A stretch of 64,000 bases of DNA from Gemmatimonadales bacterium (GCA_036265815.1 DATAOI010000052.1:186001-250000); one strand, 5' to 3'. Shown: positions 26,911 through 34,231, numbered from the stretch's first letter. The notes: a model not told the origin generated them from the sequence alone. Numbers and translations: made by a program.

Positions 26911-27246
26911 GCTGACGGCTCCGGTTGAGTGCGGGGCTAAGCTCCCGCCGAGCCGTTGCCTGTCGGTGGTGCGGAGCGTGACCCGGCCTGCGGAGCCAGG
27001 TCACGCCGGCGGCCGAATAGAGGGTTTCAGGGTGTGGACTGCGTCCGGAGCTTCACTCGTGCGTGGATCCTGCGGCGCCGAGCGCGGTGGGTGCCGGTGG
27101 CATCATCCATGAAATGATGGAGACAACCGATGCAGGCTGCTCCTCCCATTGCCGATCCCTCCGGCGGCTCTTACGTTGGACACACTGCCGCCCGGGCGTT
27201 GCCCTGCCGTTGTTGTTGCGTGACCTCCCCGCTCCCCACGGAATTC
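26911..27246. other. intergenic region with two inverted repeats
   Basis: This 336-bp gap separates the decayed oxidoreductase from the BTAD regulator. It contains a perfect 8-bp inverted repeat, GCGTGACC at 26976-26983 and GGTCACGC at 26999-27006, and CATCAT at 27101-27106 mirrored by ATGATG at 27114-27119. An upstream ATG at 27130, with GGAGA before it, could extend the regulator by 39 residues; those residues are Cys-rich and look non-conserved. No other gene is supported here. Confidence 0.5.
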
Positions 27247-29892
27247 ATGATCCGGTTCCACACCCTCGGCGTGCTGGACCTACGCGGCCCGGGTGAGGTC
27301 GAGCTCCGTTCCGTCCTTCAACAGCCGAAACGGCTCGGGCTGCTGGCTTACCTCACCATCGCCTCGCCTCGCCGGTTTCACCGGCGAGACTCGCTCCTGG
27401 CGCTCTTCTGGCCGGAGCTGGATCAGGAGCACGCGCGTGCGGCACTCCGCCGCTCGCTCTACTTCCTGCGGGCGGAACTAGGAGCGGACGTGGTCGCCGG
27501 CCGGGGCGACGACGAGCTGGAGGTACCCGAGGCGGCACTCTGGTGCGACGCGACCGCGCTGGACCGAGCGCTGGACGAGGGACAGGCCGAGGCGGCCCTG
27601 GCGCTCTACCGTGGGCCGCTGCTCGAAGGTCTCTATGTCACCGGCGCGTCCCCGGATTACCAGGACTGGCTGGATCGCGAGCGCGTCCGGCTGCGGGAGC
27701 GCGCCGCGGTGGCGGCACGGTCGTTGGTGGAGCGGAGCGAGGCCGACGGCCGCCTGTCCGAGGCCGCCCAGTGGGCTCGGCGCGCGCTGGAGCTCAGCCC
27801 TCATGATGAAGCCGCCCTTCGCCGCCTGCTCGCGCTGCTGGACCGGGTGGGTGACCGCTCGGCCGCGCTCCGGATGTACGATCAGTTCGTCCGCCGCATG
27901 GCGCAGGAGCTCGAGCTCGATCCGTCCGCTGAGACCAGTGCGCTGGTCGACATGATCAGGGCGCGCGCCGACGTAGTGGTCCCCGGCGCCCGGGCCGCGG
28001 CCGATAGCACCCCGACCGACTCGGCCCTCCCCGCCGCCAGCACCATCGCCGTGCTGCCCTTCTCGGTGCGGGGGAACAGCCGCTTCGGCTATCTCGGGGA
28101 AGGCATGGTCGAGCTGCTCGCCACCAAGCTGGACGGTGCCGGCGAGATCCGCACGGTCGATCCGCGGGCACTGCTCCGCTTCCTCGCCCGGGATGACCCG
28201 GCGGCCGCGCTGCCCGACGCCCGCGCGGTGGCGGAGCACTTCGGAGCAGGCCGCTACCTGACCGGCACCGTGGTGGAGGCAGGCGGGCGGATCGAGGCGG
28301 CAGCCTCGCTGTACGCCCTCGACGGCAGAGAGATCGCGCGGGTCCACGCCAACGCCACGGCCGAGGACGACATCTTCGATCTGGTGGACGAGCTCGCCCG
28401 CCAGCTCCTGGTGGCGCAGCGGGTCGGGCCCGGCACCCGGCTGGCCCGTCTGGCGGCGCGCACCACGACCTCGCTGGATGCGCTCAAGGCGTATCTCGGG
28501 GGCGAGCGCGAGCTGCGCGCGGGCCGGTACTTCGATGCCATGGAGGCGTTCCAGGCCGCGGTCGACGCCGACGGCTCATTCGCCCTGGCCTACTACCGCC
28601 TGGCGGCCGCAACGGCGGGGTGCGCGCTCCCCGATCTCGCCCGGGAGCTGGCCGACCGCGGGTTCGATCACCGGCAGCGACTCTCCCCTCACGACCGGCT
28701 GGTCTTCAGCGCGCAGCGCGCCTGGCTGCACGGCGCGGTCACGGAAGCCGAGTCGCTCTACAACACCATCACCGGCACCTACCCGGACGACGTGGAGGCC
28801 TGGTTCCACCTGGGCGACCTCCTCTTTCACTCCAATCCGCTCCGCGGCCGGTCCGCCGTGGAAGCCCGCGGGCCATTCGAGCGGGTGATCCGGCTCGACC
28901 CCGACCATGTCGCCGCGCTGGTTCACCTGGCGCGGATCTCCGCCCTCCAGGGCCGGAGAGGAGAGATGCTCGATCTGATCGAGCGGATCCTGCGGGTGAG
29001 CCCCCAGGGAGATCAGGCGCTGGCGATGCGGGCACTCCGGGTGTTCTCCGGCAGCGATCGCGCCGCGATGCAGGAGATCGCGGATGAGCTGCAGCAGGCC
29101 CGCGCCATCACGGTGGCGATTGCGTTCTCCGACGTGGCGCTCTATGCCGGCAATCTTCCCGGCGCCGAGCTGCTGGCCCGGAGCTTCATCCAGGTGGCCC
29201 GATCGCCCGAGCTGCGCGCGCTCTGTCACATCGTGCTGGCCCACCTCGCCCTGGCGGCCGAGCGGCCGGAGTCGGCCTGGCAGGAGCTGGAGCACGCCGA
29301 GGTCCTGGACCGGACCTGGGGGCTCGAGATGCGGGCGCTGTTCGCGACTCTGCCGTTCGTGCCGCGGACGCAAGGCGAGCTCCGCGAGGTCCATCATGCC
29401 CTGGAGCGGTGGGACATCGGCACGATCGAGCCGAGCATGTTCCTGATTTTCGCGATGCACAACGATCTGCACCCGGCGATCCGGGCGTATCTGCTCGGTC
29501 TGCTGGAGGTCCGGCTGGGAAACCTGGCCGGCGCCGCCGCCCGGGTGGCCGAGCTGGGCGCCGCGCAGCCGGAGCCGACCGGGTTGGCGCGCAGCCTGGA
29601 GGTGGAGCTACGCGCCACGGTGGCGCGGGCCGAAGGGCGCGCCGGAGAGGGACTCATGCTGCTGGAGCGGTGCCGACCGGAGCTCTGGTTTCAGCTGACC
29701 GTGGCATCGCCGTTCTTCTCGCTCGCCTCGCAGCGGTTCCTCCGGGCCGAGCTGCTGCACGAGGTGGGAAGGAGGGAAGAAGCGGCCGCGTGGTATGGGT
29801 CGATTGCGGAGCGCTCACCCTATGAGCTGATCTACGCCCCCGCGGCGCGGCGCCAGTTAGCCGAGATCAGCGAGGCCGCGGCCCGTCGGTGA
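27247..29892 (+). CDS. BTAD-domain transcriptional regulator with TolB-like and TPR regions
   Basis: An 881-residue protein from ATG 27247 (alternative ATG 27130). The N-terminus (about 1-90) is the winged-helix part of SARP/AfsR-type regulators (FHTLGVLDLRG, RRDSLLALFWPE, ARAALRRSLYFLR). The bacterial transcriptional activator domain follows to about 240 (EAAQWARRALELSPHDE). A TolB-like N-terminal domain begins at about 270 (IAVLPFSVRG), and TPR-type repeats fill about 430-880. It probably binds DNA and senses a protein or ligand through the repeats. Its target is unknown; the divergent decayed oxidoreductase is one candidate. Confidence 0.87.
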   Translation: MIRFHTLGVLDLRGPGEVELRSVLQQPKRLGLLAYLTIASPRRFHRRDSLLALFWPELDQEHARAALRRSLYFLRAELGADVVAGRGDDELEVPEAALWCDATALDRALDEGQAEAALALYRGPLLEGLYVTGASPDYQDWLDRERVRLRERAAVAARSLVERSEADGRLSEAAQWARRALELSPHDEAALRRLLALLDRVGDRSAALRMYDQFVRRMAQELELDPSAETSALVDMIRARADVVVPGARAAADSTPTDSALPAASTIAVLPFSVRGNSRFGYLGEGMVELLATKLDGAGEIRTVDPRALLRFLARDDPAAALPDARAVAEHFGAGRYLTGTVVEAGGRIEAAASLYALDGREIARVHANATAEDDIFDLVDELARQLLVAQRVGPGTRLARLAARTTTSLDALKAYLGGERELRAGRYFDAMEAFQAAVDADGSFALAYYRLAAATAGCALPDLARELADRGFDHRQRLSPHDRLVFSAQRAWLHGAVTEAESLYNTITGTYPDDVEAWFHLGDLLFHSNPLRGRSAVEARGPFERVIRLDPDHVAALVHLARISALQGRRGEMLDLIERILRVSPQGDQALAMRALRVFSGSDRAAMQEIADELQQARAITVAIAFSDVALYAGNLPGAELLARSFIQVARSPELRALCHIVLAHLALAAERPESAWQELEHAEVLDRTWGLEMRALFATLPFVPRTQGELREVHHALERWDIGTIEPSMFLIFAMHNDLHPAIRAYLLGLLEVRLGNLAGAAARVAELGAAQPEPTGLARSLEVELRATVARAEGRAGEGLMLLERCRPELWFQLTVASPFFSLASQRFLRAELLHEVGRREEAAAWYGSIAERSPYELIYAPAARRQLAEISEAAARR

Positions 29893-29913: not shown

Positions 29914-30843
29914 CTACTGTGCCTCAGCCGCGGCGGACTGGCCCGCGGCGGACTGGCCCGCGGTGAGCCTGAAGCGCAGCTCACCCGCATCCACCGTCTG
30001 ACCCGCCCGCACCTGCACGGTGACCACCTCGCTCCGCAGATGGCGCCGCACATCCTCCGCCATCACCTGGTACGAGCCCGGGCGGAAGAAGGAGATGGTG
30101 AAGCGGCCCTGGGCATCGCTGCGCGACGTGGAAGCCAGCGGCCCGAGGACCGAGGTCGAATCGAGACCATAGTAGACACCGAGCAGCGCGTTCGGGGCCG
30201 GCGTGCCGTCCTCCCGGCGCACCAGCCCGGTGATGCCGCCGGAGCCGCTGCGGGTGATGGCGCGGAGGAAGGGCATGAAGGTGAACCCGCCGTGCCCGTC
30301 ATAGAGGAAGCTGCGGCCCACGTCGAAATCGATGACGATGTCGGCACCGTTCTCGTCCACCGCCATCGGCTCCTCGACCATGGCATAGAGCGTCGGATGA
30401 ACGCCCTTCGCCTGCCAATCGATCCCCGGGGTGCCGGGCGTTTCGGTACGGGTGATGGTCTGGCCCTCGGCGTCGGTGATGCCGGAGCGGTCGGGATCGA
30501 TGACCATCCGCACCGCCGAGTAGTTGCCCCGTGGGATCACCGCGTCGCCCAGCAGGGCGGTCGAGCCGTTCTGCAGGTCGAGCAGGTTGAAGGCGCGATC
30601 CGGGGTCGCCACGGTCACCCAGGGTGGCCCAGACTCCGAGGTGTCGGCTCGGACCGCCAGGGCGATGCTGACCACGTGGATGTCCACCCGGGATACGCCG
30701 TCGAAGGGAAAGGGATCATCGGTGAGAAACACCGAGGTCTTGCCGTCCGTCGTATGGGGGGCCTGGGGCCCGATCTCATTCGAGTCACAGGCCGACAGCG
30801 CCAACAGCGCGCCCAGCCCGATCACCATTCCAGTGCTGCGCAT
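29914..30843 (-). CDS. DUF4382-type lipoprotein with a carboxypeptidase-regulatory-like domain
   Basis: A 309-residue lipoprotein starting at ATG 30843 behind GGAGG. The lipobox is LSAC near residue 19. Residues about 35-190 match DUF4382 (VFLTDDPFPFDGVSRVDIHV, YSAVRMVID). Residues about 200-290 form a CarboxypepD_reg-like beta sandwich (ITGLVRREDGTPAPNALLGVY, GRFTISFFRPGSY). It is probably a cell-surface binding protein. It is divergent from the sigma factor operon across 139 bp, which makes it a plausible target of that sigma factor. Confidence 0.82.
   Translation of the reverse strand: MRSTGMVIGLGALLALSACDSNEIGPQAPHTTDGKTSVFLTDDPFPFDGVSRVDIHVVSIALAVRADTSESGPPWVTVATPDRAFNLLDLQNGSTALLGDAVIPRGNYSAVRMVIDPDRSGITDAEGQTITRTETPGTPGIDWQAKGVHPTLYAMVEEPMAVDENGADIVIDFDVGRSFLYDGHGGFTFMPFLRAITRSGSGGITGLVRREDGTPAPNALLGVYYGLDSTSVLGPLASTSRSDAQGRFTISFFRPGSYQVMAEDVRRHLRSEVVTVQVRAGQTVDAGELRFRLTAGQSAAGQSAAAEAQ
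29932..29961. repeat. 15-bp tandem repeat, two copies
   Basis: The unit GGCGGACTGGCCCGC occurs twice in a row inside the 3' end of the DUF4382 gene. On the minus strand it encodes the repeated AAGQS tail. In-frame length change by slippage would leave the reading frame intact. Confidence 0.8.
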
Positions 30844-30954
30844 AGCCGCCTCCGAACAGTCGCGAGAGTCGTGGTGGGTCCACCCTCTCAGAGACCCGGA
30901 GGTGCCGCGGGCTGTGACCATCGGGCCGTGCGGCTGGCCACCATTCCCGTTGTC

Positions 30955-30980
30955 ACAACCTGGGCGGTGTGAGAGTCTAC
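30955..30980 (+). promoter_or_regulatory. ECF-type promoter candidate of the sigma factor operon
   Basis: ACAACC at 30955-30960 and GTCTAC at 30975-30980 are separated by 14 nt and resemble -35 (GGAACC/ACAACC) and -10 (GTCTAA-like) boxes of ECF sigma factors. Initiation would fall at the start codon. TCACA and TGTGA form an inverted repeat around it. Autoregulation is the usual arrangement for ECF operons and is inferred here. Confidence 0.45.
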
Positions 30981-30982
30981 CC

Positions 30983-31522
30983 ATGATGAGCGACAGCGAT
31001 GCCGCGCTGGTCGCCCGAACGCTCGCCGGCGACCTCGAGGCGTACACCCAGCTGATCGCTCGCTACCGCGACACGCTGGGGCGCTACGCGGTGTACATGG
31101 TGGGCAATCGGGAAGACGCCCAGGAAGCGATGCAGGACAGCTTTTTCCGGGCCTACCGCAGCCTGGGGGAGTGCCGCCAACCCGAACGCTTCGGGGCCTG
31201 GCTCTTCCGGATCGTGGTCAACCGCTGCCGGACCGCGCAGCGGCGGCTCAGCCGGGATCGGCGGTTCACCGGAGAGCTTCCGACCGAGGTGGCCGCGAAC
31301 GGAGACGCCGCCGACGGGCTGGAATGGCGGGAAGAGATCGCCCGGGCACTCGCCAGGCTTAGGCCCCACTACCGCGAGGCGTTTCTCCTGCGTTACGTGG
31401 AAGAACTCGAGTACGACGAAATGGCCAAGCTCACCGGCGCCAATCAGCCGGCCCTGCGCATGCGAGTCAAACGGGCCAGCGACCAGCTCCGGGAGCTGCT
31501 GCGGGACATCCATGCCACCTGA
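30983..31522 (+). CDS. ECF-family RNA polymerase sigma factor
   Basis: A 179-residue sigma factor. Region 2 spans about 10-80 (LIARYRDTLGRYA, DAQEAMQDSFFRAYRSL) and region 4 about 120-170 (LRPHYREAFLLRYVEELEYDEMAKL, then a helix-turn-helix). No region 3 is present, as expected for ECF types. Start ATG 30983, with ATG 30986 equally possible. It overlaps the next gene by 11 nt. That gene encodes a single-pass membrane protein in the position normally held by an anti-sigma factor. Confidence 0.93.
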   Translation: MMSDSDAALVARTLAGDLEAYTQLIARYRDTLGRYAVYMVGNREDAQEAMQDSFFRAYRSLGECRQPERFGAWLFRIVVNRCRTAQRRLSRDRRFTGELPTEVAANGDAADGLEWREEIARALARLRPHYREAFLLRYVEELEYDEMAKLTGANQPALRMRVKRASDQLRELLRDIHAT

Positions 31523-32021
31523 TCACAGCGACGAACTTCAGGATGACATCCTGCGCCGGGCGGTGGCCGAGCTCCGGCGGCCGGTGGCACTGGATCCGGC
31601 CACCGATGCGGCGGCGCTCCGGAGGATCCGCACGGAAGGCTCCCGGCCGGCCGGCCGGCCGTGGTGGCGCGGGGCTCTGGCCGCCGCCGCGCTCGCCGCC
31701 GGGATTCTTCTCCTGCTGCTGCTTCGCTCCTCGGCGCCGCCGACGCCGAGCGGCGGCGCCAGGTCGGTCGAGCTCCGCCTCGTCGCGCCCACCGGCTCCC
31801 AGGTCGTCGTCGTGGGAGACTTCAACGACTGGGACCCGGCGGCTACTCCGCTCCGTCCCGCGGGTGAGCCCGGGGTCTGGAAGGTCGAGCTCCGACTCAA
31901 GCCGGGCCGTTACCACTACGCGTTTCTGGTCGACCAGCGGCACTGGGTGAGGGATCCGAGCGAGCCGCCCGTCTCCCACGCCGACTTCGGTACCCCGACA
32001 TCGGTTCTGACGGTAAGTTGA
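31512..32021 (+). CDS. single-pass membrane protein with CBM48 domain, putative anti-sigma factor
   Basis: This 169-residue protein has a cytosolic segment (1-50) that is mostly helical (ILRRAVAELRRP, DAAALRRIR), one membrane helix (about 52-72), and an outer domain (84-168) with the glycogen-binding/isoamylase N-terminal fold: VVVVGDFNDWDPAA with Trp107, GVWKVELRLKPG, YHYAFLVD. No zinc-finger anti-sigma (ZAS) motif is present. The 11-nt overlap with the sigma gene and the N-in topology fit an anti-sigma role. That role is inference; the carbohydrate-binding fold is clear from motifs. Confidence 0.82.
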   Translation: MPPDHSDELQDDILRRAVAELRRPVALDPATDAAALRRIRTEGSRPAGRPWWRGALAAAALAAGILLLLLLRSSAPPTPSGGARSVELRLVAPTGSQVVVVGDFNDWDPAATPLRPAGEPGVWKVELRLKPGRYHYAFLVDQRHWVRDPSEPPVSHADFGTPTSVLTVS

Positions 32022-32025
32022 TCCG

Positions 32026-32634
32026 ATGCGATCCTCCTCTTTCCTCCTGCTACTGGTCGGCCTTGTCACCGTGCTCCCGGCCGCGCTTCGGGCCCAGGAC
32101 CGCCGGCTCGCCGAGCGGCTGGATCCCGTCACCGCGGCAACCGTGCAGCACCTGGTGAATTCGGCGCGCACCAGCGGTCTCCCGACCGAGCCGCTGGTGC
32201 AGAAGGCGCTCGAGGGCAGCACCATGGGGGCGAGCGGAGACCGGATCCGGACCGCGGTCCAAGGGCTGCTGGGCCAGCTCGCCCAGGCGCGCGAGGCGCT
32301 CGGCAGTCGCGCGAGCGAGGCGGAGCTCACGGCTGGTGCGGGCGCGCTTCGCGCCGGGCTCCCGGGCGGCTCGCTCAGCCAGCTCCACGATATCAGATCG
32401 GGGCAGTCCCTGGTGGTCCCGATCTCCGTGCTCACCGACCTGGTGGCGGAGGGTGTGCCGCCAGAGCAGGCCACCAGGGAGGTCTTCGATCTCGCGCGCG
32501 AGGGTCGGTCCGACGCCGAGTTCGTGGAGCTGCGCCGCCGAGTGCAGCTACGACGCGGCGGCACTCCGGCCGTGCCCCAGCCACCCGAGCGGCCGGTAAC
32601 AACGCCGGCCGCCGATCCGCCGTCGGACCGATGA
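32026..32634 (+). CDS. secreted protein of unknown function in the sigma operon
   Basis: A 202-residue protein with signal peptide (FLLLLVGLVTVLPAALRAQ). The mature part is Ala/Leu-rich and mainly helical (about 25-110), with a second helical block SVLTDLVAEGVPPEQATREVFDLAREG and a Pro-rich tail. I do not recognise a domain. It starts 4 nt after the CBM48 gene, and its stop overlaps the next start (ATGA), so it belongs to the same transcript. Confidence 0.78.
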   Translation: MRSSSFLLLLVGLVTVLPAALRAQDRRLAERLDPVTAATVQHLVNSARTSGLPTEPLVQKALEGSTMGASGDRIRTAVQGLLGQLAQAREALGSRASEAELTAGAGALRAGLPGGSLSQLHDIRSGQSLVVPISVLTDLVAEGVPPEQATREVFDLAREGRSDAEFVELRRRVQLRRGGTPAVPQPPERPVTTPAADPPSDR

Positions 32635-33809
32635 CCGCCCCCGCGATCGCCTCGATCGTGGCGCTGCTCCTTGGCGGAGCGGCCGGCGCCGCGGCGGGCC
32701 AGGCCAGCGCCACCCTGGACATGGGCGCCGGAAGCTATCGGCCGGATCGCGCCATCACCGGGGGGGTGGCCTCTGTCGCGCCGGCGGTACGAGTGGCGGC
32801 TGGACCTGTCCGCTGGTTCGGATCGGGGGTGTACTCCAATGCGCAGGCCGGCCGCTGGAATTTTCAGGGCTCCAGCGGGGCAGCACTCCATTCACCCAAT
32901 TTCGGGATCTTTCGCGCCGAGCTGCTGGGCGAGGTCGACTGGACCTGGCACCACCAGGCGGCCGGCTCCGCCACGGTTGCGGGTGAGCTCCGGGGATACG
33001 TCGCGCCGTCGCCAAGCACGCTGCTCTGGATCGGCCAGGCGCGCGGGTCGGCCTGGTCGCTGGCTCAGCACCGGCCGCTCGAGCGCAGCACCGTCGGCAC
33101 CTCGGCCCGGCTGGGCCGGATTCGGGTGGGGGTGACGCTGGCCAACACCTCGTTCGATCTCTTCCGCGGAGGCGGAAAGGGAGGAGCCGCTGCCGATTCA
33201 GGGCTGGCTGGCAGCGCCGATACGCTGAGCCTCGAGAGGCGCACCACTTTTACCGACGCGATGCTTTCCGGACGGTGGGAGTTGTCGCGGCTGGACCTCG
33301 ACCTCTCGCTGGGCCGCAGGTTCAGCCGGACCACGCCGGAGATCACCCTCTGGGACGTGACCGCCGTGCGGAGCCTGACCGGCCCGTTGGCCCTCCTCGG
33401 CTCGGTGGGCCGATCCGGATCCGACCCGGTGACCGGACTGCCAGGCTCACGCTATCTGGTCGTGGGGCTGCGAGTGAGGCTCAGCGGAGCCCCCATGCCG
33501 GTGGTGGAGCTCCCGGCTGCGCCGGTGCGAAGTGGCCTCCGCATCGGTCCCGCGCGGATCACCGGACGCGAGATCCTGCTCCAGGCACCGGGCGCCCGCG
33601 AGGTCGAGCTGGCGGGAGACTTCACCGATTGGCGCCCGGTCGAGCTCGCTTCCGCGGGTGGAAACGAGTGGCGTGTCGTGCTTCCGATCGCGCCCGGCCT
33701 GCATCGCCTCGCGGTACGGATCGACGGCCGGGCCTGGGGTGCGCCGCCCGGCACCCGCCGGATGACCAGTGAGTTCGGCTCGGAGGTCGGAGAGGTGGCC
33801 GTCGAATAG
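32631..33809 (+). CDS. secreted beta-rich protein with C-terminal CBM48 domain
   Basis: A 392-residue protein with signal peptide (cut near AAGQA). Residues about 25-290 show alternating hydrophobic/polar strands of outer-membrane-barrel type (RWFGSGVYSNAQAGRW, RRTTFTDAMLSGRWELS, LDLDLSLGRRFSR). Residues about 306-392 repeat the CBM48 pattern of the operon's second gene (VELAGDFTDWRPVEL, EWRVVLPIAPGLHRLAVRIDG). So two products of one operon carry the same type of glycan-binding fold, one at the inner membrane and one probably at the outer membrane. Confidence 0.78.
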   Translation: MTAPAIASIVALLLGGAAGAAAGQASATLDMGAGSYRPDRAITGGVASVAPAVRVAAGPVRWFGSGVYSNAQAGRWNFQGSSGAALHSPNFGIFRAELLGEVDWTWHHQAAGSATVAGELRGYVAPSPSTLLWIGQARGSAWSLAQHRPLERSTVGTSARLGRIRVGVTLANTSFDLFRGGGKGGAAADSGLAGSADTLSLERRTTFTDAMLSGRWELSRLDLDLSLGRRFSRTTPEITLWDVTAVRSLTGPLALLGSVGRSGSDPVTGLPGSRYLVVGLRVRLSGAPMPVVELPAAPVRSGLRIGPARITGREILLQAPGAREVELAGDFTDWRPVELASAGGNEWRVVLPIAPGLHRLAVRIDGRAWGAPPGTRRMTSEFGSEVGEVAVE

Positions 33810-33846: not shown

Positions 33847-34231
33847 GTGAACACCCGCCATACCCGTGCGTTGGCCCGATCCCGGCTCTCTCCGGCGGCC
33901 GTCGTTCTGCTCCTGATCTCCTGCTCCTGCATGTCCTGCGGCCGAAGGGCGGCTCCCTCAGCCGAGCGCGGCCCAGTGGCCGGGCGATTCGCGCGGAGTG
34001 CCGTGGCACCCCGCCGAAGAGGTCGATCTCCCCACCATGGTGGCGCTCTATACCATCAACGCCGCTTATGCCAATCACCAGGAGCGGGAGACCGGGTCGA
34101 TTGAGGCAGGCAAGCTCGCCGACCTGGTGGTGCTGGACCGGAATCTGTTCGAGCTTCCGGTGGATCAAATCCATCGGGCGCGGGCAATCTGGACTCTGCT
34201 GAAGGGTGAGACCGTGTTCCCGCGCCGCTAG
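33847..34231 (+). pseudogene. amidohydrolase (YtcJ-like) reduced to its two ends
   Basis: GTG 33847 opens a lipoprotein-like signal (RLSPAAVVLLLISCSC). Shortly after, another frame holds a typical amidohydrolase C-terminus: MVALYTINAAYANHQE, GSIEAGKLADLVVLDRN, and TLLKGETVF before TAG 34231. Everything between, including all metal ligands, is missing. An intact member would be near 550 residues; about 120 codons remain in two frames. This is a deletion remnant. Confidence 0.75.

Follow-up and report, generated by a model that had tools for sequence, protein, structure and literature searches.

How an ECF sigma factor is controlled when the gene after it encodes a single-pass membrane protein ending in a CBM48 domain is the question raised by an operon of a Gemmatimonadales bacterium (GCA_036265815.1, DATAOI010000052.1:186001–250000; this whole stretch of 64,000 nucleotides is called the window). 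The anatomy of the operon, its conservation, the homology of its putative anti-sigma segment via intermediates and its promoter motif were computed, and the result was compared with known signalling systems.

Architecture of the Operon

The operon consists of four genes that overlap or lie at most 4 nt apart, in the order and spacing given in the initial annotation (Table 1). The first product matches Sigma70_r2 with 51.6 bits and r4_2 with 46 bits in Pfam. Because of the position of its promoter, the second ATG is favored as its start, which yields a protein of 178 residues. The product of the second gene (the 31512 product) is made up of a segment of approximately residues 1–52, a transmembrane helix at approximately 53–74 and a CBM48 domain at approximately 82–169. 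Since the N-terminus was taken as cytosolic from the sequence, the CBM48 domain would be periplasmic. The zinc anti-sigma motif HX3CX2C is absent from this protein, as had been annotated.

Table 1. Features of the operon and its divergent neighbor (window coordinates).
Feature	Position	Strand	Remark
ECF sigma factor limited to regions 2 and 4	30983–31522	+	First ATG at 30983; probable true start at 30986
Probable membrane anti-sigma factor, transmembrane helix and CBM48	31512–32021	+	11 nt overlap with the sigma gene
Exported all-helical protein	32026–32634	+	4 nt gap after the preceding gene
Predicted outer-membrane 14-strand beta-barrel with C-terminal CBM48	32631–33809	+	4 nt overlap with the helical gene
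Divergent exported protein, DUF4382 and carboxypeptidase-regulatory-like	29914–30846	−	Likely co-regulated via the divergent promoter
Predicted autoregulatory promoter, GTCAC-N17-AGTCT	30952–30978	+	7 nt before the ATG at 30986
Second predicted promoter of this sigma factor, divergent, GTCAC-N17-GGTCT	30892–30918	−	Reads towards the DUF4382 gene

Two flanking regions were also read. Directly after the operon, at 33847–34231, a start resembling that of a signal peptide (33847) is closely followed, in a different frame, by a tail like the C-terminus of an amidohydrolase (33998–34231); read by eye, the region looks like a decayed gene. On the other side, the DUF4382 gene adjoins a gene for a BTAD-TPR transcriptional regulator-like protein of 920 residues (27130–29892).

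Conservation of the Gene Arrangement

Homologs were searched in genome contigs with a CBM48 peptide pattern, and the sampling is therefore biased to CBM48 proteins. The CBM48 membrane protein was matched in 72 of the 102 genomes of the window’s family and in 280 of 395 sampled Gemmatimonadota genomes (~70%), with one to several copies each, and the helical protein was found in 247 of 394 genomes of the class. A sigma gene lies directly upstream of the CBM48 membrane gene at all 161 unique Gemmatimonadota places for which the upstream sequence extends to 1500 nt or more; the initial annotation had named the conservation of this pair in relatives beforehand as a point on which its reading depended. 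The junction itself is also kept: in 147 of 182 pairs, the membrane gene begins at −8 or −4 when counted from the stop codon of the sigma gene. Further downstream, 70 of 77 loci continue with the helical gene, and the remaining seven with the barrel gene followed by the helical gene. Of 43 cases, 33 have the barrel gene on the same strand and 7 have it on the opposite one, and the divergent DUF4382 gene family recurs in 8 of 40 related loci.

Outside the phylum, the sigma and CBM48-membrane pair was found in Rhodothermia, Elusimicrobiota, Desantisbacteria and Bipolaricaulota, and also in MAGs labelled Clostridia and Eisenbacteria, labels that may be wrong. Among the Rhodothermia loci listed, the sigma gene is upstream in 29 of 29, and in nearly all a long ORF whose match lies in its CBM48 part is present downstream. 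Because the arrangement is conserved across the phylum and beyond, it is not due to chance.

The search also returned related arrangements. Five loci (L054, L055, L056, L057 and L070) carry a paralogous operon with a longer, LDGE-type anti-sigma segment and the barrel-CBM48 gene on the opposite strand; in L054, methionine synthase and NifU-like genes are found downstream of it. In the phylum of the Elusimicrobia MAG L134, several CBM48 domains occur in adjacent genes (G469:C2, G481:C109 and G498:C2), with 10–13 matches per genome. Free-standing CBM48 proteins of ~100 residues with no sigma neighbor are widespread in several phyla (e.g., L115, L120, L124 and L126).

The Membrane Protein as a Probable Anti-Sigma Factor

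The initial annotation had placed the CBM48 membrane protein in the anti-sigma position, and both the location of its gene after the sigma gene and the descent of its N-terminus agree with this. In class I complexes, helix 4 of the anti-sigma domain binds sigma region 2 and helix 1 binds sigma region 4, and the zinc motif is absent from ~44% of class I anti-sigma domains (PMC7406223). The 31512 product itself gave a weak, generic anti-sigma match in NCBIfam (E 0.006) and no stronger one there. The HX3CX2C motif, missing in the window protein, is present in the N-terminus of eight distant homologs that share the transmembrane helix and CBM48 domain (from Elusimicrobiota, Desantisbacteria or MAGs), and in five of the six zinc homologs scanned, zf-HC2 exceeds its Pfam cut-off together with CBM48.

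The cytosolic segments were linked by hhalign, the final comparison using the eight zinc sequences and 22 Rhodothermia sequences as bridges. The zinc homologs matched the Rhodothermia segments with a probability of 98.0%, the Rhodothermia segments matched the LDGE class of Gemmatimonadota with 98.0%, and the LDGE class matched the class of the window protein with 97.9%, against at most 1.1% for unrelated controls. The zinc homologs also matched the LDGE class directly (93.5%); their direct match to the window class is weak (23.6%). With three zinc homologs alone, an earlier profile comparison with the N-termini of the LDGE class had given 2.7%. According to the alignment, counterparts of helices 3 and 4 are kept in the window class, while those of helices 1 and 2 are missing.

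Taken together, the zinc motif fused to the transmembrane helix and CBM48 domain in homologs and the stepwise profile links support the anti-sigma reading well: by descent and position, the 31512 product is probably a membrane anti-sigma factor. The missing zinc motif of the window class looks like a secondary loss rather than the mark of a different protein class. As in RseA, ChrR, RskA and RsiW, a cytosolic domain precedes the transmembrane helix and the gene directly follows that of an ECF sigma factor, and zinc-less members are common among these class I proteins (PMC7406223). The window class differs from them in keeping the helix 3–4 equivalents only and in having CBM48 as its outer domain.

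Alternatively, the membrane protein might not be an anti-sigma factor at all, the sigma factor being controlled otherwise, for example by its expression alone, and the CBM48 proteins being structural targets. The missing helices 1 and 2 would fit this, and so would a mean-field DCA between the sigma factor and the 31512 product, in which the cytosolic segment accounted for 26 of the top 100 couplings with 25% of the columns, in a shallow alignment of 182 unique pairs (Meff 130). However, the zinc anti-sigma domain of the orthologous proteins, the chain of profile matches and the strict adjacency and overlap with the sigma gene all speak against this alternative, which we regard as very improbable.

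Promoters and Regulon

The initial annotation had pointed to promoters near 30955 and upstream of 30843, and both places proved to fit one bipartite motif. In Gemmatimonadota, 66 of 172 regions carry GTSAC-N15..18-RGTMT where the sigma gene begins, compared with 0.6 in shuffles, mostly with a spacer of 17 or 18 nt; on the divergent strand, the motif occurs in 35 of 175 upstream regions, compared with 0.5 in shuffles. A GTSAC-N17-RGTCT promoter just before the sigma start implies autoregulation. In 42 of the 66 regions, the next RTG start codon lies exactly 7 nt downstream of the motif. This short distance implies a leaderless message, and the sigma mRNA of the window is probably of this kind, judged from the sequence.

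A pattern search of the window’s own genome for a wider regulon gave 13 matches, compared with 16 for the reversed control, and none other than the two at this operon was recognized as a promoter by eye. In 61 genomes of the family, the pattern matched at most twice per genome. Since these genome-wide searches gave no larger set, the regulon appears to be limited to local genes, although variants of the motif could be missed.

Comparison with Known Systems

The view in the initial annotation that no described system has this layout calls for correction, as it overlooked close analogues in SigI/RsgI (PMC12203970) and FecIRA-type surface signalling. No report linking CBM48 or AMPK1_CBM with a sigma or anti-sigma factor was found in the open-access literature. 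In the SigI/RsgI systems of Clostridium thermocellum, a co-encoded sigma factor and single-pass anti-sigma factor likewise occur with an outer carbohydrate-binding module; the modules on the anti-sigma factor sense polysaccharide, and the signal is thought to be carbohydrate (PMC12203970). Nevertheless, SigI is not an ECF factor, whereas the sigma factor described here has ECF regions 2 and 4_2. Moreover, RsgI works in a Gram-positive cell wall and possesses an N-terminal domain and an autocleaving periplasmic domain of its own, its modules are CBM3, CBM42 or PA14 instead of CBM48, and it has neither an outer-membrane barrel nor a helical partner.

Fec/Fox signalling resembles the operon in pairing an ECF sigma factor and a single-pass anti-sigma factor with an outer-membrane barrel that has a domain in the periplasm (PMC9249621, PMC11637429). 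In FoxI/FoxR/FoxA, the periplasmic signalling domain of the barrel contacts and protects the anti-sigma factor FoxR (PMC11637429). Here, by contrast, the barrel is predicted to be porin-like with 14 strands, CBM48 is present on both partners, and there is an additional helical protein.

Membership in these two systems was examined through their defining features. In Pfam, the sigma factor is of the ECF type and no RsgI domain was matched; for Fec-type TonB-dependent signalling, there was no FecR, Plug, STN or TonB-receptor match, and the barrel model has 14 strands. Membership in both was dropped because neither set of defining features was found here.

The Predicted Barrel and the Helical Protein

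The product of the last gene had been described as barrel-like with a C-terminal CBM48 domain, on which AlphaFold2, Foldseek and Pfam agree. The AlphaFold2 model shows 14 long strands at residues 24–285 followed by CBM48 at 303–391, with moderate confidence (mean pLDDT 69.5, pTM 0.55). In Foldseek, it resembled outer-membrane porins; among the matches listed, the highest target-normalized TM-score (0.66) belonged to a variant of the 14-strand porin OmpG. The CBM_48 family scored 19.7 bits with the protein as query, below the cut-off of 22.4, and 23.0 bits, above it, in the whole-genome search; the profile of the barrel CBM48 family matches AMPK-beta at 1.5e-5. An even number of strands places both ends of a barrel on the same side, which for outer-membrane barrels is usually the periplasm. 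As the even strand number of the model puts both ends together, the C-terminal CBM48 is predicted to face the periplasm.

The third product was confidently predicted as all-helical, with about 10 helices (pLDDT 91), in line with its annotation as an exported helical protein. It belongs to no Pfam family, and a structure search with its model returned no PDB counterpart and nothing below E 0.05. Two operons, L065 (2271–2963) and L073 (2192–2920), have the helical gene twice, with the additional copy located after the barrel gene.

CBM48 Domains and Their Possible Ligand

The CBM48 domain annotated in the 31512 product lies above both Pfam cut-offs, with 36.1 bits for CBM_48 (cut-off 22.4) and 35.9 bits for AMPK1_CBM (cut-off 26.8). 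It is homologous to that of the barrel (E 2e-7), and for both domains the nearest PDB structures include glucan enzymes as well as the AMPK-beta glycogen-binding domain. In AMPK-beta, W100 and W133 stack against the glucan, and lysine 126 also has a role. The equivalents of both tryptophans are nearly invariant: W107 is present in 182 of 182 membrane proteins and W145 in 161 of 182, and W334 and W369 are present in 35 of 35 barrel proteins. The W100 equivalent is also part of the CBM48 fold motif. The position of lysine 126, in contrast, is not conserved in the membrane protein (alanine in 107 and methionine in 27 of 182). Thus, the likeness to the AMPK-beta domain (PF16561/CBM48; PDB 1z0m, 1z0n) extends to the fold family and two tryptophan positions, whereas the fusion to a transmembrane anti-sigma factor and to a barrel, and the variable lysine position, set the present domains apart. 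Since the tryptophans are nearly invariant, alpha-glucan binding by the CBM48 domains is plausible, even though the lysine 126 position varies.

In a strict glucan relay, both domains would bind a stored, exported or imported alpha-glucan, and the ligand would trigger release of the sigma factor, as plant polysaccharides do with RsgI (PMC12203970). Besides this precedent, the structural relatives and the conserved tryptophans would fit such a relay. Two other CBM48 matches in the window’s genome, in long ORFs of enzyme size, make alpha-glucan metabolism plausible in the host and count in the same direction. On the other hand, no carbohydrate gene was recognized among the neighbors scanned (DUF4382, peptidase M20, phosphoesterase, MFS, methionine synthase and thioredoxin-like), the predicted regulon includes no sugar gene, and the lysine 126 equivalent is lost. 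On balance, the strict relay is unlikely.

Alternatively, the system might sense the integrity of the outer membrane without any glycan. The CBM48 domains or the helical protein would bind protein, and loss or misassembly of the barrel would expose the anti-sigma factor to proteolysis. By analogy with the FoxA signalling domain and FoxR, the barrel CBM48 would normally contact and protect the anti-sigma factor, a contact-dependent protection for which there is precedent (PMC11637429). In favor of this explanation, the two domains are homologous to each other and predicted in one compartment, the genes for the barrel and the anti-sigma factor stay linked across phyla, and the lysine equivalent is lost. 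The near invariance of the stacking tryptophans in both domains counts against it, as they are unneeded for protein binding alone, although the first is also a fold residue. Sensing of this kind is conceivable, but we consider it less probable than not by a clear measure.

Proposed Mechanism and Significance

The reading that we prefer, and hold to be fairly likely, is an autoregulated module of an ECF sigma factor and a membrane anti-sigma factor with periplasmic CBM48 sensing and a barrel and a helical partner. How the sigma factor is bound and released, in which compartments the parts lie, and what the ligand and the signal are, are inferred as follows. The 31512 product would tether the sigma factor to the inner membrane via a shortened, zinc-less class I anti-sigma domain consisting of the helix 3–4 equivalents, and its single transmembrane helix would put its CBM48 domain in the periplasm, where the 14-strand outer-membrane barrel would present its own. 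The third gene would supply the exported helical partner. Together, the periplasmic CBM48 domains and the helical protein most likely read the state of either an alpha-glucan-like ligand or the barrel itself. A change of signal would then lead to proteolysis or a conformational change of the anti-sigma factor, and the freed sigma factor would transcribe its own operon and, in the window’s clade, the divergent DUF4382 gene. Such a link from the envelope or a glucan to transcription looks undescribed.

More broadly, and at somewhat short of an even chance, the locus may represent a sigma switch that spans the envelope by means of two CBM48 domains, of which the inner-membrane anti-sigma factor carries one and the barrel, on its periplasmic face, the other; a glucan, or the two domains themselves, would do the bridging or gating. 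The helical periplasmic family, hitherto without a name, would be a regular part of it, and it would occur in most Gemmatimonadota, in Rhodothermia, in Elusimicrobiota and in others. If true, its interest would lie in a type of sigma/anti-sigma signalling with a glucan-binding-type sensor in diderm bacteria of distant phyla. The locus also brings to light a conserved protein family without any annotation, that of the helical protein, and the zinc anti-sigma domain, eroded stepwise to an apparent two helices, would offer a natural test of the minimal domain that can hold a sigma factor.
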